A stretch of 64,000 nt of DNA from Flavobacterium okayamense. GTDB lineage: Bacteria > Bacteroidota > Bacteroidia > Flavobacteriales > Flavobacteriaceae. The translations under genes were made by a program, and so were the position numbers. The stretch covers positions 682,001 through 746,000 of the forward strand of contig NZ_AP024749.1 of the NCBI RefSeq assembly GCF_019702945.1. The letters are read 5' to 3'. Shown here piece by piece: positions 17,574-62,652 of the stretch; within the stretch, counting starts at the first letter, position 1, and each line of letters begins with the position of its first letter. The notes under the pieces are model-generated. The model searched no databases. It saw only the letters and a program-made list of their open reading frames with translations, and was not told where the DNA came from.

Positions 17574-17635
17574 TAAAGTTACGGCAAGATAGTAATTGAG
17601 TGGATACAGGTTTTCTGTATATTTTGTTAAAGTTT
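17574..17635 (-). promoter_or_regulatory. Shared-element promoter 1, upstream of the 74-aa gene
   Basis: On the plus strand 17601-17635 starts TGGATACAGG and ends TTGTTAAAGTTT; its core ATACAG-GTTTT-CTGTAT is a perfect inverted repeat. After exactly 19 nt (17582-17600) the minus strand has TAACTTTA (17581-17574), one base off the Bacteroidota -7 consensus TAnnTTTG. No -33 TTG is visible; the element occupies that position. The ATG follows about 40 nt downstream. Copies with the same layout occur at 20923-20984 and 62591-62652. Confidence 0.8.
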
Positions 17636-17648
17636 AGATACAGAAATA

Positions 17649-18326
17649 CTAGATGAAACCGTGCTTTTTAGCTTCTCTTACTATATCTTCATCACTTCCG
17701 CCTACGATAGAAAAGCATTCTTTTATTTGTGCTTTTCGTTTATCAACAGCACTTTGACCAAGATTTAAATACTGTGGAATATTTTTAGTTAAAACACCTT
17801 GAGATAGTAATCTAATTATTTCTCTGTTTTGCTCATCTAAAAGTACATTATTTGATCCTGTTGAAAGAATCTCATTTATACCTTCAGAAACCGTTTTACT
17901 TTCATAAATTTTACCTTGGATAATATGCTCAAATGCAGACAAAAGTTCTTCTGCAGAGAAATCACTTTTAACCAAAAGTCCGTTAGGTTTTATTTTTTTC
18001 TTTAAATCATAAAGCATAAACGCTTCAGCATGAGAAGTAAGTATTATTATTTTAGTTTCAGGAAGTTTCTGTTTTATGATTGCCGCTAAATCTTCACCCG
18101 AAAGTATTTTCTCTTCTTCATATGGTGGTAGGCTTAAATCAAGAAAGACAACATCAAAAGTAGAAATCGTAGATTTTTGAAGAACTTGATAAGCTTCTTT
18201 ACAGGAAAAAGCAGTTGTGTAATTAAATGTTAACCCCATTTCATTAAAAGATAATATACTTTTATAACCCTCAATTATCATGGGGTGATCGTCAATCATA
18301 AAAATATTTAACTTGTTTTCTTCCAT
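17649..18326 (-). CDS. LuxR/NarL-type response regulator
   Basis: The 225-residue protein has a receiver domain (residues 6-135) with acidic pocket D12-D13, phosphoacceptor D63 (VVFLDLSLP), T97 and K120. A C-terminal helix-turn-helix (about 157-205, REIIRLLSQGVLTKNIPQYL, then GQSAVDKRKAQIKECF) completes it. It starts 2 nt before the end of the kinase gene and is surely its partner. LuxR-type dimers commonly bind inverted repeats, so it is the natural candidate to bind the TACAG/CTGTA elements upstream of its own operon (20950) and next to its 3' end (17601). Confidence 0.95.
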   Translation of the reverse strand: MEENKLNIFMIDDHPMIIEGYKSILSFNEMGLTFNYTTAFSCKEAYQVLQKSTISTFDVVFLDLSLPPYEEEKILSGEDLAAIIKQKLPETKIIILTSHAEAFMLYDLKKKIKPNGLLVKSDFSAEELLSAFEHIIQGKIYESKTVSEGINEILSTGSNNVLLDEQNREIIRLLSQGVLTKNIPQYLNLGQSAVDKRKAQIKECFSIVGGSDEDIVREAKKHGFI

Positions 18327-18328
18327 AA

Positions 18329-20335
18329 CTAATATATCTTATTTAAAACTAACGAAATTTGTGTGCCTTTATTGGGTCCTGATTTTAATTTAAATTCTGC
18401 ATTTATATCATCGGCTCTTTCCTGCATGTTTTTAATACCAATTCCTTTTTTCTTTTTAGAAGTATCAAAACCCTTTCCATCATCACTTATATTGACCAGT
18501 AAAGAATTTTCATTCTTAATGAATTCTATAGAAATATTTTTGGCTTCGGCATATTTGTTTGTATTAAAAAGAGCTTCTTGTAAAATTCTATATAAGTTCA
18601 TTTTAATTTTAGTCTCAATAGTTTCCCATGGAATGTTTTCATCAATATTATATACTAAATTTGATTCCGTTAGTGGTTTCTGTTTTTCAAGGAAATCAAC
18701 TAAAATATTTTTAAAGTTATTATTTGTATATGATTCGGCTGTTAATTCGTGAGCTATACTTCTTACTTCTTTTTCTATATTTTGAATTTCGTTAATATGT
18801 GGTAAACATTTTTGGATTGTTTCTTCGTCAGTTCTTTTATTTAAAACAAATAAATTTAGTCTTGTACTGGCTAATTTATTCATAACTCCATCATGTAATT
18901 CTCTTGCAATTCTCTTCTTCTCTGAATTTCTAGCTTCGTCTATTTTTACTTGTTGCTCAATCATCATTTGATAGATCTTCTCGTTTGCTTGTTGTTGTTG
19001 ATGTGCAAAAACTAATTGCTTTTGTCTGCTTCTTAAATAAAGAACTATGTATAGTAATGATCCTATGGAAAACAACACAAGAAAAACTAGTACAATTGTA
19101 GAAAGCTTATTAGTAATCGCTTCTTTTTCAATTATAATTTGATCGGTTTCAAATTCAATTCGCGCTAATTTATTTCGAGTATTTCTCTCTTGTTCTTGTA
19201 AACTGTCGCTAAGTTTTATGTATTCTTGGGCGTATTGTAAGCCTTTTTTGGGCTCTATTTTGGTAAAAAAATCTAAAGTAGTTAAGACTTCTTTGTTGTA
19301 GTTAGATTCTTTGGCGAGTTGATAAGCCTCTTGGTTTAATTTTTTGGCATTAAGGGTATCTTTTTTTTCTAAATAATATTCTGTAAGGTGGATACGGCTG
19401 TTGATTTTTCCTGCAACATCGTTAATACTATCTCTAATTTTTAATGCTTCATTAAAGTCATTTATAGCATCTTTTTTTAATTTAAAATTTGTATAGGCAT
19501 ATAAACTAAGAACAGATGCATATAGTCCTGGATGTAACTCTTTTGTTTCTTTAACCTCTAAAGCCTTGTTGTATATATTCAAAGCTCTGTTATAGGATTT
19601 TGCATTTAAATATACATGACCAATATTATTATAAGCTTGAACTTCTAAAAGACCTGTATTTATGTTTTTATCTGATTTTTTTAATTCTTCAAGTGATTTA
19701 AAATAATACTCAATTGATTTTTCATAATTTTTTTGACCTTCTAGAACTCTACCTAAATTATCATAACATTGATGAATTATTTCATTGTCATTTATTTCTT
19801 GAGCAATTTTTAAAGCGTTAATTGTTTCAATTTCACTTCCTAAAAAATCTTTTTCAAATAATAAGACTCTTGCAATATGTAAGGTCGTTATTGCTAAATT
19901 GTATTTATCAGTCTTTTTTTCATATTTATCTTTAGCTCTTAGATAATAATAATATGCACTATCATTTTTAAAATTATAAAAATAATAATCTCCTATATAA
20001 TATTCTGCTTTAGCAATTTGAAGAGTGTCTTTTAAGGCTTTAGATAAACTTAAAGCCTCTTTTGATACTTTAAAATAATTATCATATTCTAACAAAGTAA
20101 AATACCTGTTAGCTACTTTAAAAATATTTTTTAATTGTAAAGAATCTCTTTCATTTTTATTGTTAACAATTGAATAAGCTGAATCAACATGCTTAATTCT
20201 ATCGTCTCTATTTAATTCAAGATTGTATGCTTCAATAAAATGATTTTCTAATTTACTTGAATTGGGTAAATTATTTTCATCTCTTTTACATGAAAAGAAA
20301 ATTAATACTAGGGTAAAAGCTAATAAATATTTCAA
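18329..20335 (-). CDS. TPR-containing sensor histidine kinase (HisKA_3), lipoprotein-type N-terminus
   Basis: The 668-residue kinase begins with a signal sequence ending in a lipobox-like IFFSC (C16). TPR repeats (about residues 35-380, e.g. YDNLGRVLEGQKNYEKSIEY) follow, then a membrane helix (411-434), a coiled coil and a HisKA_3 dimerisation domain with H481 in ARELHDGV. The HATPase domain has the N box in ILQEALFNTNKYAEA and G boxes DDGKGFD and GIGIKNMQERA. TPRs lie outside the cytoplasm, so the ligand is presumably a periplasmic protein or peptide. It is translated just before the response regulator and downstream of two small exported proteins. Confidence 0.93.
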   Translation of the reverse strand: MKYLLAFTLVLIFFSCKRDENNLPNSSKLENHFIEAYNLELNRDDRIKHVDSAYSIVNNKNERDSLQLKNIFKVANRYFTLLEYDNYFKVSKEALSLSKALKDTLQIAKAEYYIGDYYFYNFKNDSAYYYYLRAKDKYEKKTDKYNLAITTLHIARVLLFEKDFLGSEIETINALKIAQEINDNEIIHQCYDNLGRVLEGQKNYEKSIEYYFKSLEELKKSDKNINTGLLEVQAYNNIGHVYLNAKSYNRALNIYNKALEVKETKELHPGLYASVLSLYAYTNFKLKKDAINDFNEALKIRDSINDVAGKINSRIHLTEYYLEKKDTLNAKKLNQEAYQLAKESNYNKEVLTTLDFFTKIEPKKGLQYAQEYIKLSDSLQEQERNTRNKLARIEFETDQIIIEKEAITNKLSTIVLVFLVLFSIGSLLYIVLYLRSRQKQLVFAHQQQQANEKIYQMMIEQQVKIDEARNSEKKRIARELHDGVMNKLASTRLNLFVLNKRTDEETIQKCLPHINEIQNIEKEVRSIAHELTAESYTNNNFKNILVDFLEKQKPLTESNLVYNIDENIPWETIETKIKMNLYRILQEALFNTNKYAEAKNISIEFIKNENSLLVNISDDGKGFDTSKKKKGIGIKNMQERADDINAEFKLKSGPNKGTQISLVLNKIY

Positions 20336-20371
20336 ATCAGATCCTTTTCACAAAGCTAAACAAAATTACCA

Positions 20372-20551
20372 TTAATCTCTTTTTATACTGATAATTGGTA
20401 ATTGCTCTCCTGAATGAATAGATGAATTTACTGTTTTAAACTCTTTTTCAAAATAAATTTCATTTTTTGGTTGTTTCATAACTTCTTTAGAAATCATTGA
20501 TAATAGAGTAATTAATATTACTAATCCAAATAAAACTGTTGAATTTTTCAT
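20372..20551 (-). CDS. Small single-helix exported peptide, 59 aa
   Basis: The minus-strand frame from the ATG at 20551 to the TAA at 20372 encodes MKNSTVLFGLVILITLLSMI, then a mature part of about 38 residues rich in K, E and polar residues and ending in PIISIKRD. The hydrophobic stretch (residues 5-20) is either an uncleaved anchor or a signal peptide. It lies between the small lipoprotein and the histidine kinase, 22 nt and 36 nt away, all on one strand, so an operon is likely. No homologue is recognised. It could be a ligand or accessory of the kinase, which is inference from position alone. Confidence 0.6.
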   Translation of the reverse strand: MKNSTVLFGLVILITLLSMISKEVMKQPKNEIYFEKEFKTVNSSIHSGEQLPIISIKRD

Positions 20552-20573
20552 GTTTTTGTATTTTTATATTCTA

Positions 20574-20831
20574 TTAATCTTTTTTTGGTGGTACTAAAAC
20601 TGGTTCTGTGTTGTCTGACGAACCTGTTGTATCCTCTTCTCCATCTTTAGCTGCCCAATTAGATTCGTTGTCATCTATTGGTAAAATGTCATCATAAATA
20701 AGGTTTAATTGTTCATTCATTCTGTGAACCTTTAATTCTTCTGTGTCTGGCATGTCATAAGCATCTGTTGAACACGACACAGATACCAATACTAAGCTAA
20801 CTAAGCTTAGAGCAAAAATTACTTTTTTCAT
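20574..20831 (-). CDS. Small lipoprotein, 85 aa, first gene of the two-component operon
   Basis: A signal sequence (MKKVIFALSLVSLVLVSVSC) ends in a lipobox with C20. The mature part is short, acidic and low in structure (DTEELKVHRMNEQLNLIYDD, then a tail of E, D, T, S and P). It would be lipid-anchored in the periplasm or on the surface. It is the first gene behind the promoter at 20923-20984 and is followed by the 59-residue peptide, the TPR kinase and the regulator. No family is recognised. A sensory-accessory or ligand role for the kinase is inferred from linkage only. Confidence 0.75.
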   Translation of the reverse strand: MKKVIFALSLVSLVLVSVSCSTDAYDMPDTEELKVHRMNEQLNLIYDDILPIDDNESNWAAKDGEEDTTGSSDNTEPVLVPPKKD

Positions 20832-20922
20832 AATATTTAATATTGGGTTATTTTGTATTTTTGATTTCCTTAAAACTCAAATAAATTATAATTATTTGAT
20901 AATCAAATAATTCGACTAGAAA

Positions 20923-20984
20923 CAAAGTTAAGAAAGAAAGAGTTTTAGTTGGATACAGATTTTCTGTAAAAATTGTTAAAGTTT
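20923..20984 (-). promoter_or_regulatory. Shared-element promoter 2, upstream of lipoprotein-peptide-kinase-regulator operon
   Basis: The plus-strand element 20950-20984 starts TGGATACAG and ends TTGTTAAAGTTT, with inverted repeat TACAG-ATTTT-CTGTA. After exactly 19 nt (20931-20949) the minus strand has TAACTTTG (20930-20923), a perfect TAnnTTTG -7 box. The leader to the ATG at 20831 is about 85 nt. The far end of the element is 4 nt from the plus-strand ATG of the phosphatase gene, so a bound regulator could also affect that gene. Confidence 0.85.
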
Positions 20985-20988
20985 CTCT

Positions 20989-21714
20989 ATGCGTAAATTA
21001 GTTGTTGGTGATGTTCATGGAGGTTTAAAAGCCTTAAAACAAACTCTTGAAAGGGCAAAAGTGACTCCAAATGATCTTATTATTTTCTTAGGTGATTATG
21101 TTGATGGTTGGAGTGAGTCGTCTAAGGTGATTGATTTTTTAATCCATTTTCAGTCGACACATAATTGTATTTGTTTATTAGGAAATCACGACGAATTACT
21201 ATTAGAATGGTTGGAAACTGGTGAAGAAAATTTGGTTTGGCTTCAACATGGAGGACAAGTTACTGTAAATGAATATCAACTATTAAGTCCTGATAAAATT
21301 CAGCAGCATATCAAGTTTATTAAGTCTTTGCCAACTTTTCATTTGGATGATAAAAACAGATTGTTTCTTCATGCCGGTTTTACGAGTTATAAAGGAATTG
21401 AATTCGAATATTATAAAAAGCTTTTTTATTGGGACCGAACACTTTGGGAAACAGCTTTGGCTTTAGATTCAAATCTTTCTAAAGACGATTTATTTTATCC
21501 TAAAAGATTCAATTTGTATAACGAAATTTACATTGGCCACACACCAGTTACCCAAATTAATGAAACAATTCCGGTTAACAAAGCTTGTATTTGGAATATA
21601 GATACTGGTGCTGCATTTAAAGGAAAACTAACAATTATGGATGTAGACACCAAAGAATTTTGGCAAAGTGATGTTTTACCTGAATTATATCCAAACGAAA
21701 AAGGTCGGAATTAA
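20989..21714 (+). CDS. PPP-family metallophosphatase
   Basis: The 241-residue protein carries the PPP-family metal-binding motifs: GDVHG (D8, H10), GDYVDG (D36), GNHD (N66, H67, D68), and later histidines in FLHAGF and YIGHTP. These bind a two-metal centre that hydrolyses phosphomonoesters. Bacterial relatives act on phosphoproteins or on small molecules such as diadenosine tetraphosphate; the substrate here is not readable. It is divergent from the two-component operon, and its ATG is only 5 nt past the shared promoter element. There is little room for a separate promoter, so it may be transcribed leaderless or be affected by regulator binding. Confidence 0.92.
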   Translation: MRKLVVGDVHGGLKALKQTLERAKVTPNDLIIFLGDYVDGWSESSKVIDFLIHFQSTHNCICLLGNHDELLLEWLETGEENLVWLQHGGQVTVNEYQLLSPDKIQQHIKFIKSLPTFHLDDKNRLFLHAGFTSYKGIEFEYYKKLFYWDRTLWETALALDSNLSKDDLFYPKRFNLYNEIYIGHTPVTQINETIPVNKACIWNIDTGAAFKGKLTIMDVDTKEFWQSDVLPELYPNEKGRN

Positions 21715-21748
21715 GCCTATTCCTTATCTTTGTTCAAAATTTACAATA

Positions 21749-22240
21749 ATGAAAAAAATAGTTTTTATACTTACTTTTTTTTCTGCTTTTGCTCAAGGGC
21801 AAGTTTTTAGTGGAAAAGGAGATCAAAAATTTCAAATTGGCGCTAATTTTCAAGATCACGGAAATGGTATTATTGGCACTTATGATCATGGTTTAGGAAA
21901 AAACTTTTCAATTGGAGGAGTAGCATGCTATTTGTTAGGAGTTGAAGAAGTTTTAGGAGATAAACCAAATTTTGAAGATCGTTTTGATTTAAAAGCCCGT
22001 TTTAGTGCTCATATTGCAGATATATTTGATATTGAAGAAAAGTTTGATTTTTACCCTGGTTTAGATATTGGTTTAAAAAACTTTGGTGCACATTTAGGTG
22101 CTCGTTATTTCTTTACCGATGGAATAGGAATTTATTCGGAAGTACAATTCCCAATTGCGCAATATGATACCGATGTTGTGGGATTTGAAAATTATAATAA
22201 TCAATTTAACTTCTCAATTGGAGCAAGTTTTAATTTATAG
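21749..22240 (+). CDS. DUF6646-like outer-membrane beta-barrel protein
   Basis: The start is taken at the ATG at 21749 (MKKIVFILTFFSAFAQGQ, a signal peptide). The frame open to 21668 overlaps the preceding gene and is not credible. The mature 145 residues alternate polar and hydrophobic residues with Gly turns (GANFQDHGNGIIGTYDHGLG, AHLGARYFFTDGIGIY) and end in ASFNL, a typical C-terminal beta-signal. This fits a small eight-strand outer-membrane barrel. Function unknown. The next gene follows after 3 nt. Confidence 0.8.
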   Translation: MKKIVFILTFFSAFAQGQVFSGKGDQKFQIGANFQDHGNGIIGTYDHGLGKNFSIGGVACYLLGVEEVLGDKPNFEDRFDLKARFSAHIADIFDIEEKFDFYPGLDIGLKNFGAHLGARYFFTDGIGIYSEVQFPIAQYDTDVVGFENYNNQFNFSIGASFNL

Positions 22241-22243
22241 AAA

Positions 22244-22819
22244 ATGAGTATAGTTACAGAAAAAAGATTAAAAGATAGAAGCGGTTCGGTTTGTGAAATT
22301 AGTGGAAGCGATGAAAACTTAGTGGTTTATTTAGTAGAACCAAAAACAGAAGATATTCCTGAAAATTGCATTTTAATTACAAAGTCGTTAAAAGAGCAAA
22401 TCGAAAACAAAGAATTGATGAATCCTAATGATTGGAGAGGTTTATCAGATAGTATGTGGAATGAAAATTTACCCGTACAAATCGTTTCTTGGCGAATGTT
22501 AGCTCGTTTAAAAAATTATGATTTATTAGACATGATGTATCTTGATGAAGAGGCATTAGAATGGGCAAAAGCAACTGGGGAAGACGAAGATGAGGAAGGT
22601 AAAATTGTACATAAGGATTCTAATGGAAACATTTTACAAGATGGCGACTCGGTAGTTTTAATTAAAGATTTAGACGTAAAAGGTGCCAACTTTACCGCAA
22701 AACGAGGCGCCCCTGTTCATAACATCAAATTAGTTTGGGACAATGCCGAACAAATTGAAGGTCGTGTGGAAGGCCAACATATCGTTATTTTAACGCAATA
22801 CGTAAAGAAAACGAAGTAA
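22244..22819 (+). CDS. PhnA-domain protein
   Basis: The last 70 residues hold the PhnA domain (DSNGNILQDGDSVVLIKDLDVKG, then KRGAPVHNIKLV, IEGRVEGQHIVILTQYVKK), a small SH3-like fold. The N-terminal 100 residues correspond to the longer Bacteroidota form and contain one Cys pair too sparse for the zinc ribbon of the E. coli form. Despite the name, PhnA is not needed for phosphonate use and its role is unclear. It lies 3 nt after the outer-membrane protein gene and 5 nt before the next, so these probably form one transcript. Confidence 0.88.
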   Translation: MSIVTEKRLKDRSGSVCEISGSDENLVVYLVEPKTEDIPENCILITKSLKEQIENKELMNPNDWRGLSDSMWNENLPVQIVSWRMLARLKNYDLLDMMYLDEEALEWAKATGEDEDEEGKIVHKDSNGNILQDGDSVVLIKDLDVKGANFTAKRGAPVHNIKLVWDNAEQIEGRVEGQHIVILTQYVKKTK

Positions 22820-22824
22820 AAAAG

Positions 22825-24237
22825 ATGAGGAAGTTTATATTACTATTAATCCTAATGGGTGTAAATTTTGGTTTTGCCACAGAGTTTTTTAGTGTTTCAT
22901 TAAACGAAAATGAAAAGCTTGAAGGATCAATGTCTAATAATTTTAGCAATAATGAAAGTTCTCATTTTATAATTATTAGAAACACACAATCAAGTAAATA
23001 TATTGTTAGATCATTTTTAATTAATAATGAGAAAAAAGTAATTCAGTTGGAGGATGCTATTTTTAATGAAATGCCTAATATTCTCTCTCAACATAAAAAT
23101 GAAAACACGTTAACCTTTACTAATTATAGTAAAAGAAACAAAACACTTTTCATAATAGATTTAGATACAAAAACAGGCAAAAAGAGCTTTGATAAAATTG
23201 AAAATATTGAAAATCCAGATTTAATTTTTACTGAATCTAATTTTTCTATAGCAATAAATTTAGATCCTTCCGGAAAAAGTATAACGGTTCAAAAAATAGA
23301 ATCTAGCGCGCTAAAAACAAATAAAACTATTTATGTTCCTGAAGAGTTGATTAAAGAGTTTAAAACTATTGTTAAAAATACTCCTGATGCAATTAATCAA
23401 AATGAATTTGTAAAAAATGGCTCTATAAACCCATTTAAAGCTTATTGTATAAACGAAAATATTTTTTTTACCGACAATTCAAATAGAGAATTTAGTAATG
23501 TTTTTCAATTAAATTCTAACTCACAAAATCCTATTACTAAATACAAATTCAAAACTAATTTTGACAAAGAATTAAAGGATATAAATAGTTATGTAGTAGA
23601 TAACACATTTGTGGTTTTAGGAAGTGGAAAGGAAGATTTTAGTGTTAATGCTTTTAACTTAGATAATCAACAATTTATAAATAAGATTTCCTTTTTAAAT
23701 GACTTAAAAGAAAACTTCAATTCAAATGAATTAGATATTTTTCTTAAAGAAGCCAAAAAATCGATTTTAAAATCGACAATTACTATTAATAAAACTTTAA
23801 ACAACAACTTAAAAGTAAGAATAGATAAAGTTAATAAAAATACTTATCAATACAATTATAACTGGTGGTTTCATACATGGTTTATGCAACAACAACAAAT
23901 AATGATGCAACATATGATGATACATAATCAAATTAGAGCTGGAGGTTTTGGTCCATCAGATAAATTTGATGCTTACTTCGATTTTATATTAAGTCTTAAA
24001 GATGATAAATACCAATCTTTGGAGTTTGTAGTAAATCCAACTGATTTCAAAATTATTACATCCTCTAATGAGGAAACTATATTTAAAAACGTAGATAAAG
24101 AAGCCTTATTAAGCCCTTACGAAGAAAACAACAACTTTAAAGAGTTTTCTTGTGCATTCACCGATACAGAATATCACCTTATCTACTTCAACAAGAAATC
24201 TAAAAAGGTTCATATCGAAGTAAAAAACATAAATTAA
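22825..24237 (+). CDS. Secreted protein of unknown function, 470 aa
   Basis: A signal peptide (residues 1-18, ending GFAT) leads into a long Asn- and Lys-rich, probably beta-sheet protein with no family I recognise. Repeated patterns of the type F.I..LDTKTGK and VVLGSGKEDFSVNAFNLDNQQ suggest a propeller-like fold. Near residues 347-375 there is a striking patch of W, M, Q and H (WWFHTWFMQQQQIMMQHMM). Such a cluster could bind copper or other soft metals, but this is inference. A strong bidirectional terminator follows immediately. Confidence 0.7.
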   Translation: MRKFILLLILMGVNFGFATEFFSVSLNENEKLEGSMSNNFSNNESSHFIIIRNTQSSKYIVRSFLINNEKKVIQLEDAIFNEMPNILSQHKNENTLTFTNYSKRNKTLFIIDLDTKTGKKSFDKIENIENPDLIFTESNFSIAINLDPSGKSITVQKIESSALKTNKTIYVPEELIKEFKTIVKNTPDAINQNEFVKNGSINPFKAYCINENIFFTDNSNREFSNVFQLNSNSQNPITKYKFKTNFDKELKDINSYVVDNTFVVLGSGKEDFSVNAFNLDNQQFINKISFLNDLKENFNSNELDIFLKEAKKSILKSTITINKTLNNNLKVRIDKVNKNTYQYNYNWWFHTWFMQQQQIMMQHMMIHNQIRAGGFGPSDKFDAYFDFILSLKDDKYQSLEFVVNPTDFKIITSSNEETIFKNVDKEALLSPYEENNNFKEFSCAFTDTEYHLIYFNKKSKKVHIEVKNIN

Positions 24238-24239
24238 AC

Positions 24240-24268
24240 AAAAAATCCCGCCAAAAGCGGGATTTTTT
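24240..24268. terminator. Bidirectional terminator
   Basis: The stem AAATCCCGC with loop CAAAA and GCGGGATTT is flanked by A and T runs on both sides. It serves the plus-strand secreted-protein gene and the convergent ALDH gene. Confidence 0.92.
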
Positions 24269-24302
24269 CTATTCTCTATATTCTATTTTCTTTAATCTAA
24301 AG
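24269..24302. repeat. Heptad-period arm G (CTATTCT words)
   Basis: CT recurs at 24269, 24276, 24283, 24290 and 24297, always 7 nt apart, in words CTATTCT, CTATATT, CTATTTT and CTTTAAT. It lies between the terminator hairpin and the ALDH stop codon (24307). It shares TTCTATTCTCTA with arm H at 13147. Confidence 0.65.
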
Positions 24303-24306
24303 AAAA

Positions 24307-25875
24307 TTATAAATCAAACTTAATTCCTTGTGCTAAAGGTAATTGGTCAGAATAGTTAACCGTGTTCGTTTGTCTTCTCATGTAAACTTTCCAAGCATCT
24401 GAACCTGACTCACGTCCACCACCAGTTTCTTTTTCACCACCAAATGCACCACCAATTTCAGCACCAGAAGTTCCAATGTTTACATTGGCAATACCACAAT
24501 CTGAACCGGCAAATGATAAGAATTTTTCAGCTTCTTTCATACTGTTAGTCATGATTGAAGACGATAATCCTTGCGCAACTCCATTTTGAATTTCAATTGC
24601 ATTTTCAACTTCTCCGCTATATTTCATTAAGTATAAAATTGGTGCGAAAGTTTCATGTTGTACAATTTCAAAATGATTTTCAGCTTCGATAATCGCAGGT
24701 TTTACATAACAACCACTTTCGTATCCTTCGCCTTCTAAAACGCCACCTTCAACTAATACTTTTCCACCTTCAGCTTTTGCTTTTTCAATAGCCGATAAAT
24801 ACGTGTTTACTGCATCTTTATCGATAAGTGGACCAACATGGTTTTTCTCATCTAAAGGATTTCCTAATTTAATTTGTTTGTATGCACCAACAATTGCATC
24901 GCGAACTGTATCATAAACTGATTCATGAATAATCAAACGACGCGTTGAAGTACAACGTTGTCCGCAAGTACCTACTGCTCCGAAAACTGCTCCAGGAACA
25001 ACTACTTTTAAATCTGCTGTTGGTGTAATGATAATTGCGTTGTTTCCACCTAATTCTAATAATGATTTTCCGAAACGTTCTGCAACCTTAGCACCTACAA
25101 TTCTACCCATTCTTGTAGAACCTGTAGCTGATACTAAAGGAATACGAGTATCCGTAGTAATCATTTCTCCTACTCTATAATCTCCGTTAACAATACAAGA
25201 AATACCTTCTGGTAAACCGTTTGCTTTTAAGATATCAGCAATTATATTTTGACAAGCTATTGAACATAAAGGTGCTTTTTCTGAAGCTTTCCACACACAA
25301 ACATCACCACAAATCCATGCTAAAGCTGTATTCCAAGACCAAACAGCAACTGGGAAGTTAAATGCAGAAATGATTCCAACAACACCAATTGGGTGCCATT
25401 GCTCACGCATTACGTGACCTGGGCGCTCAGATGGAATTACTTGTCCGTTTAACTGACGAGATAAACCAACTGCAAAATCACAGATGTCAATCATTTCTTG
25501 AACCTCTCCGTAACCTTCTTGTAAAGATTTCCCCATTTCATAAGAAACTAATTTCCCTAGAGGTTCTTTTAATTCTCTTAACTTATTTCCAAACTGACGA
25601 ACAATTTCTCCACGTTGTGGCGCTGGCATAGCTCTGAAAGTTTTAAAAGCTTCAGTTGCTTTTTGCATTACTCTCTCGTAATCTTCCGCAGTTGTCGCTT
25701 TAACTTTTCCAATTAATTGTCCATCTACAGGAGAATAACTTTCGATAATTTCTCCGTTAGAAAACCACTCACTTCCTGTTGAAGTCCCTTCATTTATTTC
25801 TTTTACGCCTAAAACTTGTAATGCTTCTTTCATTCCAAATTGCTCGGCAACTGTTGATTGTGCTATTGTTGACAT
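24307..25875 (-). CDS. ALDH7-like aldehyde dehydrogenase
   Basis: The 522-residue NAD(P)-dependent enzyme has catalytic C308 (GQRCTSTRRL), E275 (LLELGGNN), oxyanion N174 (AFNFPVAVWS) and the NAD-binding stretch VSATGSTRMG. Length and motifs fit the ALDH7 / alpha-aminoadipic or piperideine-6-carboxylate semialdehyde dehydrogenase branch, which oxidises a lysine-derived semialdehyde. The upstream neighbour on the same strand is 3-hydroxyanthranilate dioxygenase of the kynurenine route, so oxidation of an aminomuconate-type semialdehyde is an alternative. An AT-rich gap of 84 nt with TAAATTTG (minus strand, 25918-25911) may hold its own promoter. Confidence 0.9.
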   Translation of the reverse strand: MSTIAQSTVAEQFGMKEALQVLGVKEINEGTSTGSEWFSNGEIIESYSPVDGQLIGKVKATTAEDYERVMQKATEAFKTFRAMPAPQRGEIVRQFGNKLRELKEPLGKLVSYEMGKSLQEGYGEVQEMIDICDFAVGLSRQLNGQVIPSERPGHVMREQWHPIGVVGIISAFNFPVAVWSWNTALAWICGDVCVWKASEKAPLCSIACQNIIADILKANGLPEGISCIVNGDYRVGEMITTDTRIPLVSATGSTRMGRIVGAKVAERFGKSLLELGGNNAIIITPTADLKVVVPGAVFGAVGTCGQRCTSTRRLIIHESVYDTVRDAIVGAYKQIKLGNPLDEKNHVGPLIDKDAVNTYLSAIEKAKAEGGKVLVEGGVLEGEGYESGCYVKPAIIEAENHFEIVQHETFAPILYLMKYSGEVENAIEIQNGVAQGLSSSIMTNSMKEAEKFLSFAGSDCGIANVNIGTSGAEIGGAFGGEKETGGGRESGSDAWKVYMRRQTNTVNYSDQLPLAQGIKFDL

Positions 25876-25959
25876 TTTTAACTTTTTTACGTGTTTTGGT
25901 TAAATTTTTGCAAATTTAAGAATTTAATTTGACTCTTATTTTAAAGATTATGTAATTAA

Positions 25960-26493
25960 TTATTTTGTAAATCTTTTGTCTGATTCCATAATTGTTCCAC
26001 ATTTATCGCAGGTTCTTAATTTTTCTGAACCATAAAAATCTTTAAAGTGTGGCAAAAAGTCTTTTTCTATATCATGCAACTCGAAAAAAACTTCATGCAA
26101 TTTATGATTACAATTATCGCAATACCATAGCAAGCCATCAGTAAACCCTTTTCCTGCTCTTTTTCGTTCAATTACTAAACCTACAGAGCCCTCTGTTCGA
26201 GCTGGCGAATGAGGAACTTTTGCAGGGTGTAAATACATATCTCCTGCCTTTAATTTCATTGCTTTTTTCTTTCCCTTTTCTTGAATAAAAACTGTAATTT
26301 CTCCCTCTAACTGATAAAACAGTTCTTCAGTCTCGTTGTAATGGTAATCTTTTCGGGCATTAGGTCCGCCAACTATCATTACAATGTAGTCCTCAGAATC
26401 TACATATAAGTTTTTATTTCCAACGGGTGGCTGAAGAAGATGTTTGTTTTCTTCAATCCACTTATTCAGATTAAAAGGTTTTGCAATTGCCAT
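25960..26493 (-). CDS. nbaC: 3-hydroxyanthranilate 3,4-dioxygenase
   Basis: This cupin enzyme opens the ring of 3-hydroxyanthranilate in the kynurenine pathway, giving a product that leads to quinolinate (NAD synthesis) or is degraded. Iron ligands H51, E57 and H95 and substrate-binding R47 and R99 are all present (ARKDYHYNETEELFYQ, KVPHSPART). The bacterial C-terminal rubredoxin-like site is intact with C125, C128, C162 and C165. Length (177) is standard. No other kynurenine genes are in the window, so the rest must lie elsewhere. Confidence 0.96.
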   Translation of the reverse strand: MAIAKPFNLNKWIEENKHLLQPPVGNKNLYVDSEDYIVMIVGGPNARKDYHYNETEELFYQLEGEITVFIQEKGKKKAMKLKAGDMYLHPAKVPHSPARTEGSVGLVIERKRAGKGFTDGLLWYCDNCNHKLHEVFFELHDIEKDFLPHFKDFYGSEKLRTCDKCGTIMESDKRFTK

Positions 26494-26527
26494 AAATTAT
26501 ACTTTTTGTAAAGTTACTAAAAAGAAA

Positions 26528-26570
26528 AAAGGTTAGTTGTAATTTTTGTTACGAACTAACCTTTCTATTA
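26528..26570. terminator. Terminator hairpin
   Basis: The stem AAAGGTTAGTT (26528-26538) pairs with AACTAACCTTT (26554-26564) across a 15-nt loop. It lies just after the nuclease-fold gene (minus strand, stop at 26578), with an A run on the far side giving a T run on the minus strand. Confidence 0.8.
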
Positions 26571-26577
26571 ATTTAAA

Positions 26578-53205: not shown

Positions 53206-53217
53206 TGTAATAAAATT

Positions 53218-53308: not shown

Positions 53309-53327
53309 AAAAAATATGAAGTTAATA

Positions 53328-54308: not shown

Positions 54309-54347
54309 CAGTAAATTGGTTTTTAAAATTCAAATTTGGGTGTGAAA

Positions 54348-55847: not shown

Positions 55848-55947
55848 TAGTATAAAATTTAAATTTGGGGAAATTAAATTATACTATAACTTGTTTATTT
55901 TCAAATTATTGTGCTAATAGTAGCAAATATAACTTTTTATTTTTAAA

Positions 55948-57135
55948 TTAATCTAAAATTGCAGCAATTCCAGGAAGTACTCGTCCTTCTAACATTTCTA
56001 ACATTGCACCACCTCCAGTTGAAACATAACTCATTTTATCTTCAAATCCGAATTGTTTTACTGCAGCAACACTATCGCCACCACCTACAAGTGAAAAAGC
56101 ACCATTTGCAGTTGATTCGGCTATGAAATCACCTAGTTTTATAGTTCCGTTTGCGAAACTTTCCATTTCAAAAACTCCTAAAGGTCCGTTCCAAAGTATC
56201 GTTTTCGAATCTAAAATTAATCTTCTGAAAATTTCTAATGATTTCGGACCTGCGTCTAAACCTTGCCATCCATCAGGAATTTGATTCACATCAATAACTT
56301 GTGTATTGGCATCGTTTGTAAAAGCATCTGCTGCGATAACATCAACAGGTAAGTGAATTTGAACTCCTTTTTCTTTGGCTTTTTTCAAGATTTCAATCGC
56401 TAAATCTAATTTATCATCTTCACAAATCGAATTTCCGATTTTTCCACCTAGCGCTTTGATAAAAGTAAAAGTCATTCCACCACCAATAATCATATGATTA
56501 ACTTTATCTAAGATATTCTCGATAATAGTAATTTTTGAAGACACTTTACTTCCGCCTAAAATAGCCGTTACTGGTTTTTCAGAATCGCTCAATACTTTAT
56601 TAATACTTTCAATTTCTTTGGCTAACAAATAACCAAAACACTTATCTTTTGGATAAAATTGAGCAATAATTGCAGTTGAAGCATGCGCTCTGTGTGCCGT
56701 TCCAAAAGCATCGTTAACATAAATATCACCCAATTTTGCTAATTTTTCAGCAAATGCAACATCCCCTTTTTCTTCTTCGGCATGAAAGCGAAGATTTTCT
56801 AATAATAAAATTTCACCTGCATTTAGACTAGCCGCTGCATTTTCAACTTCTGATCCAATACAATCGTTCACAAATTTTACTTTTTTACCTAAAACTTCTT
56901 CAATTTTATATACGATATGACTTAATGAATATTTTGCTTCAACACCTTTTGGTCTTCCTAAATGACTCATTAAAATAACACTTCCTCCATCATTAAGAAT
57001 TTTATCTATTGTTGGTTTCGCAGCTTCAATTCTTGTAGCGTCAGTTACTTTAAAATTATCATCTAATGGTACATTAAAATCTACACGAATAATAGCTCTT
57101 TTGTTTGAAAAGTTAAAATCATTAAGGGTTTTCAT
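55948..57135 (-). CDS. pgk: Phosphoglycerate kinase
   Basis: The 395-residue glycolytic enzyme transfers phosphate from 1,3-bisphosphoglycerate to ADP. It has the N-terminal [26 protein letters not shown] and the C-terminal nucleotide loop [11 protein letters not shown]. Length is typical. A TATATTTG -7 box lies on the minus strand at 57166-57159, about 25 nt upstream of the ATG. The gene is monocistronic. Confidence 0.97.
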
Positions 57136-57310
57136 GAATTCTATTTTAGGTTATATTGCAAATATAAAATATTGATGCTAATAAAATTATAACATCCCTC
57201 ATATTTGCTAAAAAATTAACCGTTAACGTTTTCGTAATTGAAATTAAGCACTGATTTGTTCTCTTTACGTATATTTACAGCTCTTTTTACACATTTTTAT
57301 GTATTAGCTT

Positions 57311-58456
57311 ATGCTTTTTTCTGAGATTTTAGGACAAGAACATATTAAAAACCATTTAATTAAAAGTGCCAATGCTGGAAGAATTCCGCATGCACAATTA
57401 TTTGTTGGTCCTGAAGGAAGCGGAACTTTACCTATGGCAATTGCTTATGCACAATATATTTTGTGTCAAAATTCAGCAGAAAATAATACAGGTAACGAAG
57501 CTTGTAATTTAAAATTCAATCATTTATCGCACCCTGATTTACATTTTGCTTTTCCCGTTGCTACTAATGATGAGGTTAAGAACAAACCAGTTAGTGCCAA
57601 CTTTTTAACATCGTGGCGAGAATTTGTTTTGGAAAATCCGTATGCGGGATTGTTTGATTGGTACAAAAAAATAGGAGTAGAGAAGAAGCAAGGCCAAATA
57701 GGTGTTGATGAAGCCTCTGAAATAAACAAATCACTTGCCTTAAAAGCTTATGAAGGTGGTTATAAAGTTATGATTATTTGGATGGCTGATAAAATGAATA
57801 CTTCAGCTTCCAATAAATTACTTAAACTAATTGAAGAACCACCTGCAAAGACAATTTTCATTCTTATTACGGAACATTTAGAAGATATTTTACAAACTAT
57901 TTATTCGCGTTGTCAAGTTTTAGATTTTATTGGTTTACCTGAAAGTGAAATAGTAAAAGGATTAGTTTCACGTGAAAATTGTGAAGAAAAAATAGCGCAA
58001 AAAATAGCGCATCAAAGTGAAGGAAACTACAATAAAGCATTACACATTTTAAGAAATGATGCTACTGAATATCCTTTTGAAGAATGGTTTATTCAATGGG
58101 TGAGGAGTGCATTTAGAGCAAAAGGAAATGCAGCTGCAATTCAAGATCTTATCATATGGAGCGAAACTATTGCAGGACTGGGTAGAGAAGTGCAAAAGCA
58201 ATTTTTAAACTATTGTATTTTCTTTTTTAGACAAGCGTTATTACACAATTATCAAACAAAAGAATTGGTCTATTATGAATCAAATGTTTCAAAATTTGAG
58301 CTTGAAAAATTTGCGCCATTTGTAGATGGAAATAATATTTTACCTATATTTAAGGAGCTAGAAGATGCTATTTATCACATCGAAAGAAACGGAAATAGTA
58401 AAATAGTTCTTACCGATTTATCTATTAAATTAACACGACTTATTCATAAAAAATAA
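57311..58456 (+). CDS. holB: DNA polymerase III subunit delta'
   Basis: The 381-residue clamp-loader subunit opens EILGQEHIKNHLIKSANAGR and IPHAQLFVGPEGSGT, where the Walker A loop is degenerate as usual for delta'. It continues with VMIIWMADKMNTSASNKLLK and LIEEPPAKTIFILIT, then SRCQVLDF (sensor 1). The arrangement identifies delta' rather than the tau subunit. It is divergent from pgk and followed after 5 nt by a DoxX gene. Confidence 0.94.
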   Translation: MLFSEILGQEHIKNHLIKSANAGRIPHAQLFVGPEGSGTLPMAIAYAQYILCQNSAENNTGNEACNLKFNHLSHPDLHFAFPVATNDEVKNKPVSANFLTSWREFVLENPYAGLFDWYKKIGVEKKQGQIGVDEASEINKSLALKAYEGGYKVMIIWMADKMNTSASNKLLKLIEEPPAKTIFILITEHLEDILQTIYSRCQVLDFIGLPESEIVKGLVSRENCEEKIAQKIAHQSEGNYNKALHILRNDATEYPFEEWFIQWVRSAFRAKGNAAAIQDLIIWSETIAGLGREVQKQFLNYCIFFFRQALLHNYQTKELVYYESNVSKFELEKFAPFVDGNNILPIFKELEDAIYHIERNGNSKIVLTDLSIKLTRLIHKK

Positions 58457-58461
58457 CTACT

Positions 58462-58848
58462 ATGATTACACAAACGACTCCAATTTTACTTTTAGCTTTA
58501 TTAGCGGTTACTTTTTTACAATCTGGTTATGATAAAATAAAAGATTGGAAAGGAAATGTAGAGTGGCTAAAAGGTCATTTTGCTGAAACTATTTTAGGAA
58601 AACAAGTGCCTATTGCACTTTTTATTATCCTAATTCTTGAGATTTTCTCTGGTGTTTTTTGCGTTGCGGGTATTATCGAATTATTCACGACTAGTGACAC
58701 TATGGTAGGTTACTATGGTGCTGTTTTGTCTTGTATTACACTTATTTTCTTATTATTTGGACAACGAATTGCGAAAGATTATGATGGTGCTCGAACTATT
58801 GTTATTTACTTTGTTCCAGCAATTTTTGCGGTGTTCCTTTTAAGTTAA
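58462..58848 (+). CDS. DoxX family membrane protein
   Basis: The 128-residue protein has four membrane helices (about 6-24, 48-70, 80-100, 108-127). TFLQSGYDKIKDWKGNVEWL is the conserved first-loop motif of DoxX-like proteins. Members of the family have been linked to thiol and redox stress or quinol oxidation, but the role of this one is not known. It is probably co-transcribed with holB. Confidence 0.87.
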   Translation: MITQTTPILLLALLAVTFLQSGYDKIKDWKGNVEWLKGHFAETILGKQVPIALFIILILEIFSGVFCVAGIIELFTTSDTMVGYYGAVLSCITLIFLLFGQRIAKDYDGARTIVIYFVPAIFAVFLLS

Positions 58849-58866
58849 ATATCAATTTTTAAATAG

Positions 58867-58890
58867 AAAGCCTCGCAAATGCGAGGCTTT
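58867..58890. terminator. Bidirectional terminator
   Basis: AAAGCCTCGC pairs with GCGAGGCTTT over a 4-nt loop between the convergent DoxX and outer-membrane receptor genes. Confidence 0.92.
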
Positions 58891-61553
58891 TATAATTTAT
58901 AACTAATCGACAACATTACTATTCTTGGTAAAATATAAGTTGTATTGTTTGAGATTAAGAAATCGGAAAAACTATTGTTTACTTTAGTTCCATTGTTGAG
59001 ATAGTTTTGTGCAGACAATTCAAAACGGAATGGATTGTTTTTCTTTTGATAGCTTAAAAATGCATTGGCAATAGCAAACCTGTTATTTTGATTATTACTA
59101 TTTTTATTAAACGTTACTTCGTAATCGGTTTTAAAGTTGAAATTCTTCAAGAAGTCAATATCTACATCAAATGAAATTCTATCGTTAGTAAAATTCGATT
59201 TTGTTAAACCCGAAAACTGACTAAAATCTTTATTGTAACCAATACTCGCGCTTGGCCATTTCTTGGTAGCTGTTCGCAATTTTAATCCGAAAGATTGATT
59301 GTTTCTATCGTTTGAAGTTGTAGTTCCGTTTAAGGTTTGAACATAATTAAACCAACTTAAATTGGTTGTAAACTGTAAACGAAAGCGATATATTTTCTTC
59401 GAAATATTAGCATTTACACGCCAATTCGTTTCAGGATTATCGGTTAAAATAGGAGTAGAGAATTGATTGATTCCGTCGAGTTCAATAACATTACGAATCG
59501 TTCTTATTTTTTTATTGAAGCTCGCATTTGCAAACAACATTAAACCGCGATACATACTCGATTTTGTGTAACGCAAACTTGCCGAATGAAAACGCTCATT
59601 TTTCAACAATGCATTTCCTTTGTAAACCGAATTATAACTTTGCAAAGTATAACGCTCTAACAAACGAGTAGCATCGGGAAAATCATTACTTAACTTGTAA
59701 TTAAACTTTAAACTTTCCGATTGATTGAATTCGTATTCACTATTAAATTGTGGCTCAAAATAGGTTCTGTTTAACGAATAATCAGAAGTAATTTGTTTGG
59801 TTTTTAAATGATAAAAGTGCGTGTAAATAGCAGGTTTATTAATCCATTTTCCAATTTTAAATTTGTATTCCAATCCTACATAAAAATCATTTAAAACATA
59901 GTCTAAATCGTTACCAAATCCGTTAGCTGCAAAATCATTAACTGAACCATCGGTTAAAAATTGTTTTTCGGAAATCGTTAACTGCGTTGTGCCAAAGTTA
60001 TTTCCAACATTCGTGTACAAATGATTGAAGTTATTCAGAATCCAATAATGTTTAAACAATGCATCAACACTATTGTTTTTTACTTTTTTAACTTGTTGAA
60101 TGTTGTATTCACTATCGTTTTGCAATGGAATTAATCCCGCTAAAAATTCGGTATCGGTTAACCAAGTGTTTTGTGGTTTGTTGTTTTCAAAACTATGATT
60201 TACAACAAAAGTTGTCGTGTGGTTTTTATTTTTAAACTGCTTATGCCATTCTAAAAATTGTTTCCATTGCGAATTATCGGCATTTTGAATATTTTGGAAG
60301 TTATTTTGGCTACCATCACGCACCGAAAGTATTTGATTGGTAATATCATTACTGCTCGCTTGAAATTGGCCGTTATAAAACCATTTCGATTGATTGGTAG
60401 GCGAGAAGTTTAATTTAACGTTTCCGATTCCTAAAAGCGCTTTATTTTGCGTTGTGCTGGTTTTATCTTCGAAAGTAAAGGCACTATTTTGCAAATATTC
60501 ATTTTGAGATTCACTGAATGATGCTGTAAAAAGTTTTGAAAAAATCCCGAAACCTTCGATATCGAGCTTTGAATTAATTTCTTGGCGGAAATTTAAGGCA
60601 GAAAATTGCGATTTATTTTCTACCACATCAGTATTATCGGAAGCAAAGTTATATAAATTCGTTAACGATTTTCTACCTGAAATAAAACTGCTCACACCGC
60701 CTTGAAAACGCATCATGTCTTCAAAAGAAAAGGTTCGTTTTCCGATGTTATTAATATCGCCTATATAACTCACATTGGTTTTGGGTGCGTAATAAAACAA
60801 CCCTGCGTGACCCAGATAAAACCCGTTATCGTTTGCCACTTCAGCACCTGCTTCTACATCGCCAAAAATAAATTTCTTTTTGTCTTCTTTTAGTTTCACG
60901 TTCATCGCTAAATCTTCGCTATCGGAAACTTGTTTTAAAAAGCCTACTTCGTTAAAATTATCAATTACTTCAACTTTATCTAAAGCATCGGCAGGAATAT
61001 TTTCGACAGCTAATTTCGTACCGCCACCAAAGAACGATTTGCCTTCGACCAGCATTTTCGTAACTTTTTTGCCTTGCACCGTAACCGAACCGTCTTTGCT
61101 TACTTCAACACCAGGCATTTTCTCGAGCACTTCTTTCATTTTACGTTCGTTGCCGTTTGCAAATGCTTTTACATCGTAAATAAGCGTGTCTTTTTTTACA
61201 ATAACAGGTTGGTAATCGTAATTGATTACAATTTCTTTGAGTTCTTGCCCTGTTTCTTTGAGTTTAAAAATGTGTTCTCGTATGGTAAAATTAGCGGGAA
61301 GCTGTAAAACTTCTTCTTTAAAACCAAGATAAGAAACCTTAACCTCATAAGGTGTGTCTTTTTCAAGCTCTAACTTGTACCGACCTAGATGATCCGCAAT
61401 AGAAAATTTAAGCCCTGCATTTTCTACTAACGGTTTTGCCATAACATTAGCATTTTGCAACGGATTGCCAATGCTATCTTGTACAACGCCTGTTAGGGTT
61501 TGGGAAAAAGTAAAAAATGGTAATAAAATAAATGTAAATAAGAGATTACGCAT
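58890..61553 (-). CDS. TonB-dependent receptor-like outer-membrane protein, linked to GLPGLI
   Basis: The 887-residue protein has a signal peptide (ends TFSQ), a carboxypeptidase-regulatory-like domain (about 18-105: LTGVVQDSIGNPLQNANVMA), a plug-like region (MKEVLEKMPGVEVSKDG, VEVIDNFNEVGFLK) and a long barrel ending SISYKL. It belongs to the outer-membrane beta-barrel group usually encoded directly after GLPGLI proteins. Its ATG overlaps the GLPGLI stop as TAATG, so the two are translationally coupled. A few percent of the coding region is richer in GC than its surroundings. Ligand unknown. Confidence 0.9.
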   Translation of the reverse strand: MRNLLFTFILLPFFTFSQTLTGVVQDSIGNPLQNANVMAKPLVENAGLKFSIADHLGRYKLELEKDTPYEVKVSYLGFKEEVLQLPANFTIREHIFKLKETGQELKEIVINYDYQPVIVKKDTLIYDVKAFANGNERKMKEVLEKMPGVEVSKDGSVTVQGKKVTKMLVEGKSFFGGGTKLAVENIPADALDKVEVIDNFNEVGFLKQVSDSEDLAMNVKLKEDKKKFIFGDVEAGAEVANDNGFYLGHAGLFYYAPKTNVSYIGDINNIGKRTFSFEDMMRFQGGVSSFISGRKSLTNLYNFASDNTDVVENKSQFSALNFRQEINSKLDIEGFGIFSKLFTASFSESQNEYLQNSAFTFEDKTSTTQNKALLGIGNVKLNFSPTNQSKWFYNGQFQASSNDITNQILSVRDGSQNNFQNIQNADNSQWKQFLEWHKQFKNKNHTTTFVVNHSFENNKPQNTWLTDTEFLAGLIPLQNDSEYNIQQVKKVKNNSVDALFKHYWILNNFNHLYTNVGNNFGTTQLTISEKQFLTDGSVNDFAANGFGNDLDYVLNDFYVGLEYKFKIGKWINKPAIYTHFYHLKTKQITSDYSLNRTYFEPQFNSEYEFNQSESLKFNYKLSNDFPDATRLLERYTLQSYNSVYKGNALLKNERFHSASLRYTKSSMYRGLMLFANASFNKKIRTIRNVIELDGINQFSTPILTDNPETNWRVNANISKKIYRFRLQFTTNLSWFNYVQTLNGTTTSNDRNNQSFGLKLRTATKKWPSASIGYNKDFSQFSGLTKSNFTNDRISFDVDIDFLKNFNFKTDYEVTFNKNSNNQNNRFAIANAFLSYQKKNNPFRFELSAQNYLNNGTKVNNSFSDFLISNNTTYILPRIVMLSISYKL

Positions 61554-62239
61554 TAATTCATTTTAGTTTTTTCAACAAATTCATCTTGAGTAATTACCTT
61601 ATTATTTGGAATGTAGATTTTAATTTCTTCTTTAAAAAATTCTATTTTTTTTGCAACTAACTTTGTTTTATTATATTCTAATTCTAATATTAAACCTGGT
61701 AATCCCATATAACCATTTGGTCCGTAATTAAAATTTATTTGAGGTGTATACCATGCCGTTATCTCTCTTGAACCTGCATTACCATGTCTTGTCGTAAAAT
61801 TAATAGTACACATTGCTTTGTAACAAACATAATTATCTATAGTTTTTGAATCATCTAATAAAATCCAATTAAAATCATTATCAACTTTCAAATTGACATC
61901 ATCAATAGTCCTAAAAAGCTCATTGTTAACCTTTGAGAAATAATAAGAGTTTATTAAATATATAGCATTTGCAAGTTTTTCTATTTTTTCTTGTTTTTCA
62001 TCTTTTTGAATGGTTTTTTCTTCGTTAAAAACAAACCCCTTACTATTTGCTTGAAGTATAAATTTCTTGTCGTTAAAACTTGAATTTATTTTATCTGTTA
62101 ATGCGTTAATTTTTTCATTATCAGAGTTTTTAGTCAACATAGGTTCTACCGAAGTAGAATATTCTACTTTTAAAGATTTGTAGCTCTGTGAGTAAATAGA
62201 ATAGGAAATAAAAAATAAAAACAGTATAGTCTTTTTCAT
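61553..62239 (-). CDS. GLPGLI family protein (first of three)
   Basis: The start is the ATG at 62239 (MKKTILFLFFISYSIYSQS, signal peptide); an upstream ATG at 62266 lies inside a terminator hairpin and is rejected. Family motifs are DNYVCYKAMCTINFTTRHG, ITAWYTPQINFNYGPNGYMG and the defining GLPGLILELE. The family (TIGR01200) occurs widely in Bacteroidota, with unknown function. It is coupled by a 1-nt overlap to the receptor-like gene, so the pair probably works at the outer membrane. Confidence 0.93.
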   Translation of the reverse strand: MKKTILFLFFISYSIYSQSYKSLKVEYSTSVEPMLTKNSDNEKINALTDKINSSFNDKKFILQANSKGFVFNEEKTIQKDEKQEKIEKLANAIYLINSYYFSKVNNELFRTIDDVNLKVDNDFNWILLDDSKTIDNYVCYKAMCTINFTTRHGNAGSREITAWYTPQINFNYGPNGYMGLPGLILELEYNKTKLVAKKIEFFKEEIKIYIPNNKVITQDEFVEKTKMN

Positions 62240-62256
62240 AATTTTATAAATAAAAA

Positions 62257-62281
62257 TCAAGGGCATTTTTCATGCCCTTGA
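62257..62281 (-). terminator. Terminator after the Cys-peptide gene
   Basis: TCAAGGGCAT pairs with ATGCCCTTGA over a 5-nt loop. Read on the minus strand, it is followed by a T-rich tract and lies 11 nt after the peptide stop codon. Confidence 0.88.
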
Positions 62282-62291
62282 TAATAGTTGA

Positions 62292-62513
62292 TTAATTGTC
62301 ACATAAATCGTATGCCGCCAATATAATTTGCCCTGCCTCAACGTCAGAGTATTCACAACCATGTAACGCTTCTAAATCATCTAATACTTGAAAAGAAAAT
62401 GCAATACAAGGATCATTTCTTAAAACTTCAACAGATTCAATTTTTTCATTATTTGCCATACCAGCAAAAGATAAAGTCACAAGTGCAACTGCACTAAACA
62501 TTAATTTCTTCAT
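62292..62513 (-). CDS. Small Cys-containing secreted peptide, 73 aa
   Basis: A clear signal peptide (MKKLMFSAVALVTLSFAGMA) is followed by a mature peptide of about 53 residues with three cysteines, C36, C53 and C71 (NDPCIAF, HGCEYS, YDLCDN). It is acidic and otherwise helical in pattern. It has its own promoter (62591-62652) of the shared-element type and its own terminator, so it is a separate unit within the GLPGLI cluster. No family is named that I can be sure of. It could be a secreted signal or a toxin-like effector; the shared element ties it to the TPR-kinase locus 42 kb away. Confidence 0.8.
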   Translation of the reverse strand: MKKLMFSAVALVTLSFAGMANNEKIESVEVLRNDPCIAFSFQVLDDLEALHGCEYSDVEAGQIILAAYDLCDN

Positions 62514-62590
62514 TTTTTAAAATTTTGTTTTTGAAATTGTTTCTTTTTACGATTTCAATTGTTAAACATTTCATTACTGGTGCACCGTTA

Positions 62591-62652
62591 CAAACTTAAA
62601 AGGTTTTCTTACAAAGTTGGATACAGATTTTCTATACATTTTGTTAAAGTTT
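62591..62652 (-). promoter_or_regulatory. Shared-element promoter 3, upstream of the Cys-peptide gene
   Basis: The plus-strand element 62618-62652 starts TGGATACAG and ends TTGTTAAAGTTT. Its right half-site is CTATAC rather than CTGTAT, so the inverted repeat is weaker here. After exactly 19 nt (62599-62617) the minus strand has TAAGTTTG (62598-62591), a perfect -7 box. The leader to the ATG at 62513 is about 70 nt. Nothing else is recognised in the gap to 62808, which is AT-rich. Confidence 0.83.

Follow-up and report, generated by a model that had tools for sequence, protein, structure and literature searches.

A candidate operator of a NarL/RcsB-type two-component system in Flavobacterium, placed before lipoprotein and small-RNA genes

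Introduction

NarL recognizes sites of the TAC...GTA type, and RcsB activates the small RNA RprA. FimS of Porphyromonas gingivalis is a TPR-containing kinase, and FimR is a NarL-type regulator. In Vibrio quorum sensing, the near-identical Qrr small RNAs have their own promoters and are controlled by one response regulator, LuxO, with sigma-54. To our knowledge, operators have been described for few response regulators of Bacteroidetes. Here, we describe a 35-bp promoter element that recurs in a 64,000-nucleotide stretch of the Flavobacterium okayamense genome (contig NZ_AP024749.1, positions 682,001 to 746,000; hereafter, the window). Comparative evidence suggests that this element is very probably the operator of an autoregulated two-component system, bound and used for activation by a NarL/RcsB-type response regulator (P0001) that is encoded in the window together with a sensor histidine kinase (P0002).

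Regulators of the NarL/RcsB/LiaR type have the same receiver and LuxR-type helix-turn-helix (HTH) fold as P0001. Unlike RcsB at rprA, the present system has a Bacteroidetes sigma-A promoter, a conserved TTTAACA half, tandem copies of one small RNA and a TPR sensor. P0002 resembles FimS in being a TPR kinase (FimS model NF053520, E 2.3e-14, 52.6 bits against a cut-off of 600), whereas an operon headed by a small lipoprotein gene and the presence of small RNAs set it apart from FimS/FimR. By description, the system is Qrr-like: a single regulator would control a set of near-identical small RNAs with separate promoters, and this regulator would be of the NarL type with sigma-A rather than LuxO with sigma-54. 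No description of this operator, of the small RNA or of the peptide tail discussed below was met in the literature searched (titles and abstract openings, few subscription journals), nor was a FimR operator met at the level of titles and abstracts. Within the genus, the Rfp small RNAs of F. psychrophilum can be compared by description only, as given in the accessible part of PMC9723704, and the RNA described here may be identical to one of them. From sequence, we propose a regulator together with its operator, a probable reading residue, a promoter architecture and a small RNA as output.

A promoter element with a single spacing

The original prediction held that three minus-strand copies of the element, and no fourth, occur in the window, that each is followed by exactly 19 nt and a -7 box without a TTG at -33, and that chance is an unlikely source. 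All three copies were present as claimed (Table 1), a search at up to 3 mismatches gave no fourth, and no match arose in 100 dinucleotide shuffles of the window. The genome, a single contig of 2,781,077 bases (2.78 Mb), contained nine copies at up to 3 mismatches, against none for the reversed-pattern control. A second pattern with the box included returned the same nine and two additional places with 3 mismatches (G000:C1:1933740 and 2595977; G and L numbers are our labels for genomes and loci), with zero control matches; these two places were treated as chance. All nine copies, including the three in the window, were separated by 19 nt from a box of the form TAnnTTTR, and none had a TTG in the 7 bases at about -36 to -30. 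All were intergenic, with no overlapping ATG-initiated open reading frame (ORF) of at least 80 aa, each judged within its ~3-kb locus, and neither scattering in coding DNA nor loss of the spacing was seen. TACAG-N5-CTGTA alone, at up to 2 mismatches in the window, was not above chance (20 found, 20.1 expected).

The prediction also stated that all three copies control small exported or membrane proteins. As judged by sequence, this is true of the first genes, which encode the 85-aa lipoprotein, the 74-aa membrane protein and the 73-aa exported protein, but the statement is incomplete. Copy 2 heads an operon in which the 85-aa lipoprotein is followed by the 59-aa exported protein, the TPR histidine kinase and the response regulator; copy 3 also precedes a GLPGLI family gene; and of the six copies outside the window, three precede related, larger lipoproteins and three precede tandem small RNAs of ~75 nt. 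Proteins of 74-75 aa similar to the 74-aa protein also follow the regulator gene in G331, G367 and G455 (by eye).

Table 1. Coordinates of the promoter elements, their -7 boxes and the adjacent genes in the window
Feature	Position	Strand	Remarks
-7 box of copy 1	17574..17581	-	TAACTTTA; 19 nt past element
Element copy 1	17601..17635	-	TTTAACA-N5-TACAGAAAACCTGTA-TCCA; lies between the regulator and 74-aa genes
74-aa predicted membrane protein	17310..17534	-	After copy 1
Response regulator P0001, 225 aa	17649..18326	-	NarL/RcsB-type; proposed binder
Sensor histidine kinase P0002	18329..20335	-	N-terminal TPR region, HisKA_3, HATPase_c
59-aa small exported ORF	20372..20551	-	Ends QLPIISIKRD; candidate signal precursor
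85-aa small lipoprotein	20574..20831	-	Ends EPVLVPPKKD; candidate signal precursor
-7 box of copy 2	20923..20930	-	TAACTTTG; 19 nt past element
Element copy 2	20950..20984	-	Promoter of lipoprotein/kinase/regulator operon
GLPGLI family protein	61553..62266	-	TIGR01200; Pfam Porph_ging; downstream of copy 3
73-aa predicted exported protein	62292..62513	-	After copy 3
-7 box of copy 3	62591..62598	-	TAAGTTTG; 19 nt past element
Element copy 3	62618..62652	-	Palindrome TATAGAAAATCTGTA, one arm pair broken

The regulator and its operator across relatives

P0001 contains a receiver domain (PF00072, E 6e-12), whose phospho-acceptor D63 was invariant in 26 sequences. Its predicted structure places helices at 165-175, 180-187, 191-204 and 212-221, an arrangement that corresponds to a four-helix LuxR-type HTH; no HTH family was assigned by Pfam at E<=0.01. 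Full-length matches included LiaR, RcsB and DesR, with the RcsB-rprA DNA complex among them. D195 lies in the model's third HTH helix (191-204) and aligns opposite K188 of NarL, a residue that contacts bases.

Matches to P0001 at E<=1e-20 were found in 272 of 299 genomes of the genus, and 80 of 275 relatives were kept as regulator loci. An element was accepted before the operon and/or directly after the regulator gene in 27/80 loci, at 22 or 23 nt from the box. The element consists of two separable parts, TTTAACA and a 15-bp palindrome: across species the letters of the palindrome varied (arms TACAG/CTGTA, TACGG/CCGTA, TACAC/GTGTA, TGCAG/CTACA and TGAGG/CCTCA), and TTTAACA and the -7 box were constant. 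Where a locus had both elements, their inner arm letters agreed in 16 of 17 cases, the window included (shuffled mean 7.5, none as high in 20000; L125, nearly identical to L124, excluded), and in 11/12 after identical pairs were collapsed (p=0.0002). A scan without the palindrome requirement detected 4-5 of 5 complementary arm pairs at 20/21 sites just after the regulator gene, near-copies counted. Moreover, residue 195 was matched to arm position 4 in all 31 rows of a tree comprising the window, 26 of the 80 loci, L161, L084, L085 and L090: 16 rows combined D or N with A, and the other 15 combined E with G. The site of L161 is on the same contig as its regulator gene, not beside it; the tree did not include L132, L164 or any locus in which no element was accepted.

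The closest regulators (62-100% identity to P0001, the next being 59%) occurred in nine of the 299 genomes, own included, and the same nine carry an exact 18-mer of the small RNA. These observations bear on an alternative in which the palindrome is the target of a transcription factor encoded at some other place and the two-component genes are mere members of its regulon. A site beside a regulator gene is indeed no proof of binding by that regulator, but the tracking of arm letters with a recognition-helix residue of P0001 (through two switches), the elements flanking its gene in many species and the presence of the small RNA according to the closeness of P0001 all argue against another factor, which we regard as unlikely. 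The comparative evidence favors the earlier view of a promoter to which a protein recruits polymerase, with P0001 as the probable binder.

A search with the element of this species matched 63 of the 299 genus genomes, mostly at 2-mismatch places, with control matches in 12 genomes by our count; a family-wide search at up to 2 mismatches gave 11/199 genomes, own among them. In the other ten family genomes, each of the 11 places carried 2 mismatches (control, 3 places), and they were counted as chance without inspection. Further low-scoring places in the scans of relatives' loci were also judged to be chance.

Promoter architecture and mode of action

Positions were numbered by placing the sigma-A -7 box, TAnnTTTG according to PMC9723704, at -12 to -5. 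On this scale TTTAACA falls, by sequence, at about -62 to -56 and the palindrome at about -50 to -36, with its centre at about -42/-43. Class II activators bind near -41.5, in place of the -35 region, and the centre deduced here fits that position.

We propose that a dimer of the phosphorylated regulator would occupy the 15-bp palindrome, which reads TAC-nn-W5-nn-GTA in this species, and, centred at about -42/-43, would replace the missing -33 box and activate sigma-A RNA polymerase in the class II manner. Activation is suggested by promoters that lack a -33 box and keep a single spacing. The little-varying TTTAACA may contact polymerase or a second protein; since it remains constant while the arms change, it is probably recognized by a different partner, which could be polymerase itself. 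One promoter lies upstream of the small lipoprotein, kinase and regulator genes, which would create positive feedback, and a second would lie just past the regulator gene. Outputs would comprise exported lipoproteins, the GLPGLI operon and a tandem small-RNA array with intrinsic terminators, whose products presumably act on mRNAs in trans.

Repression by the same regulator is slightly less probable than another binding factor: repressors also bind at the -35 region, which this site overlaps, but promoters without a -33 box should be weak unaided, the centre is at the class II activator position and a repressor would not need a single fixed spacing. It is quite improbable that the 35 bp form the site of an alternative sigma factor, as the strict spacing and missing -33 TTG might suggest, because the box is that of sigma-A in PMC9723704 and the palindrome letters change symmetrically across species over a constant box, which suits a dimeric regulator; sigma-54-like and extracytoplasmic function promoters were rejected since the box is of the sigma-A type. 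Least probable of all is an origin of the copies as remnants of a mobile or amplified repeat, with no regulon. This idea is prompted by the 156-bp tandem array of three copies, by one lipoprotein gene beside relaxase-like genes (by eye) and by many box-less copies in G488, yet the flanks differ among the seven loci compared and every copy of this genome holds its spacing and direction relative to a gene or small RNA.

Several observations weigh against activation by P0001 through this element. No element was accepted in 53 of the 80 loci, among them the close relatives L127-L130 (62-64% identity); weaker sites with 3 arm pairs were present in L127, L132 and L164 of these, and the arms of L164, whose residue is E, are mutually discordant (TACAA/CCGTA). 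The symmetry test of arm agreement took sites partly chosen for symmetry. On the tree, residue and arm letter each need to change only twice, and the starred branches contribute a single independent pair; a sign test would require more switches than this, and the support from covariation is real but thin. The nine genomes with the small RNA may be one clade, so that their co-occurrence with the closest regulators may represent one or few events. In addition, the left half-site starts with GG instead of TA in G258, G346, G429 and G475 (12/30 small-RNA copies), making the palindrome less symmetric. Finally, TAACA-N5-TACAG-N5-CTGTATCC was matched 42 times in G488 when up to 2 mismatches were allowed, and a -7 box at 20-25 nt was absent from all 13 of the places listed (e.g. 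L112-L122), which indicates that such palindromes can also be repeats.

The G488 matches look like a dispersed repeat. Two neighboring palindromes without TTTAACA in the same genome did have a -7 box at 20-25 nt.

The small RNA

Three of the nine elements form the 156-bp tandem array at 917 kb, in which each unit consists of element, box and ~75 nt ending with a GC-rich hairpin and a T-run. Sixteen copies from five genomes shared a near-invariant GGTTAATAGCAGTAATTTTATTTCTTA followed by a variable terminator hairpin, with compensatory changes in 6 of 10 consensus pairs. An ATG preceded the core in some copies only, and two copies had an extra T within it; the unit has its own promoter, no conserved ORF and an intrinsic terminator, as expected of a small RNA. 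The nine genomes together hold 30 copies of the exact 18-mer GGTTAATAGCAGTAATTT, several arranged in tandem. In all 30, TTTAACA (matched at 6 or more of 7 letters) stood ahead of a 15-mer, with a TAnnTTTR box a further 22 or 23 nt on; the 15-mer was operator-like in 29, the exception being one G367 copy without an operator. The same M23/EnvC-like gene directly precedes a copy in six of the nine (G000, G258, G346, G367, G429 and G475).

Rfam gave no match to the small RNA in seven loci of this genome; the single match, to a microRNA model (E 0.51), lay outside it and was considered chance. A model of the small RNA matched 21/299 genomes at E<=0.01. Of the 12 beyond the nine (E 6e-4 to 0.01), the four inspected had the look of ordinary terminators. 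One-mismatch 18-mers were found in 11 genomes outside the nine, and none of the eight inspected (one place each) had the promoter. Viral contigs yielded 0 matches to the core. When RNAduplex was applied to 66 start regions, without a shuffle control, regulon leaders ranked from 2 (the lipoprotein at 1366 kb) and 5 (the 73-aa gene) to 60, and no clear target signal emerged. Two element-preceded genes of G361 (L306 and L309) have GCAGTAAT stretches in their leaders that bear some resemblance to the small-RNA core. An AIPR/AbiU-like abortive-infection gene (L267:3158-4861, G000:C1 ~917.7-919.4 kb) is located directly after the array.

Other candidate regulon members

The lipoproteins behind the three outside copies are related in their N-terminal parts and differ in their C-terminal parts. 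Their leaders (L264, L265 and L266) share a block, CCAACCTTTT, near the expected start. In L264 (2566-4281), the element-preceded lipoprotein gene is broken by an in-frame stop; stop-free relatives exist in the same genome. Defense genes resembling Lamassu, LmuA/LmuB (L266:4780-8499, G000:C1 ~1369-1373 kb), are near the element-preceded lipoprotein of L266, which also adjoins relaxase-like genes (by eye).

For a wider regulon, we used a loose genus-wide pattern, whose noise (267/299 genomes matching, many with equal control matches) limited it to picking sites with the species' own arm letters; 18 such regions gave 19 sites. An ATG ORF of at least 45 aa was present within 500 nt of 13 of the 19 sites, the remaining 6 having none, and the Pfam scan covered seven of these 13. 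It identified M43 metalloproteases at L305 and L311, an M4/Por_Secre_tail metalloprotease at L315 (cut by the locus end) and PAS or sensor kinases at L313 and L318; two proteins had no Pfam family, and one of these two (L308) was related to the lipoproteins of our genome. Elements in G367 precede an M12B-type protease (L096, truncated at the end of the locus) and relatives of our own lipoproteins.

A candidate peptide signal

As in peptide quorum-sensing systems, a gene for a small exported candidate precursor lies beside the kinase gene. As counted by us with a simple filter, one to four small lipoproteins head the operon in 26 of 35 loci, and a second small exported ORF is present in 16/35; no lipoprotein passed the filter in nine loci (L140, L145, L149, L155, L159, L160, L163, L166 and L172). 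The tails compared were from 24 lipoproteins (the window, L098 and 22 of the 26 loci; L136, L138, L154 and L173 were left out) and 9 of 17 second ORFs. Mean pairwise identity among the 24 lipoproteins was 0.35 over the last eight residues, 0.25 in the stretch after the lipid-bearing Cys and 0.11-0.12 in the middle. The first and second ORFs, otherwise unlike, have the tail in common, and in L153 both end with KP, not KD. The common C-terminal peptide is roughly P-[IVL]3-x-[KR]-[KRN]-[DP], a pattern composed after the sequences were inspected.

P0002 has one apparent membrane helix, by sequence, and the TPR region is ahead of it, suggesting that the kinase TPR is probably outside the cytoplasm. 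It is possible, though we suggest it tentatively, that these genes form a quorum-sensing-like circuit of Bacteroidetes, in which a released or displayed tail peptide would act on the kinase TPR and, through the regulator, on its own operon, Qrr-like small RNAs, lipoproteins and, elsewhere, secreted metalloproteases. A peptide signal is the boldest reading; more plainly, the product could be an accessory lipoprotein touching the kinase. If the tails are signals, they would represent peptide communication in a phylum for which the titles and abstract openings searched describe no such system. In L127-L130, L152 and L173, two to four copies of the small-lipoprotein gene stand in tandem upstream of the kinase gene.

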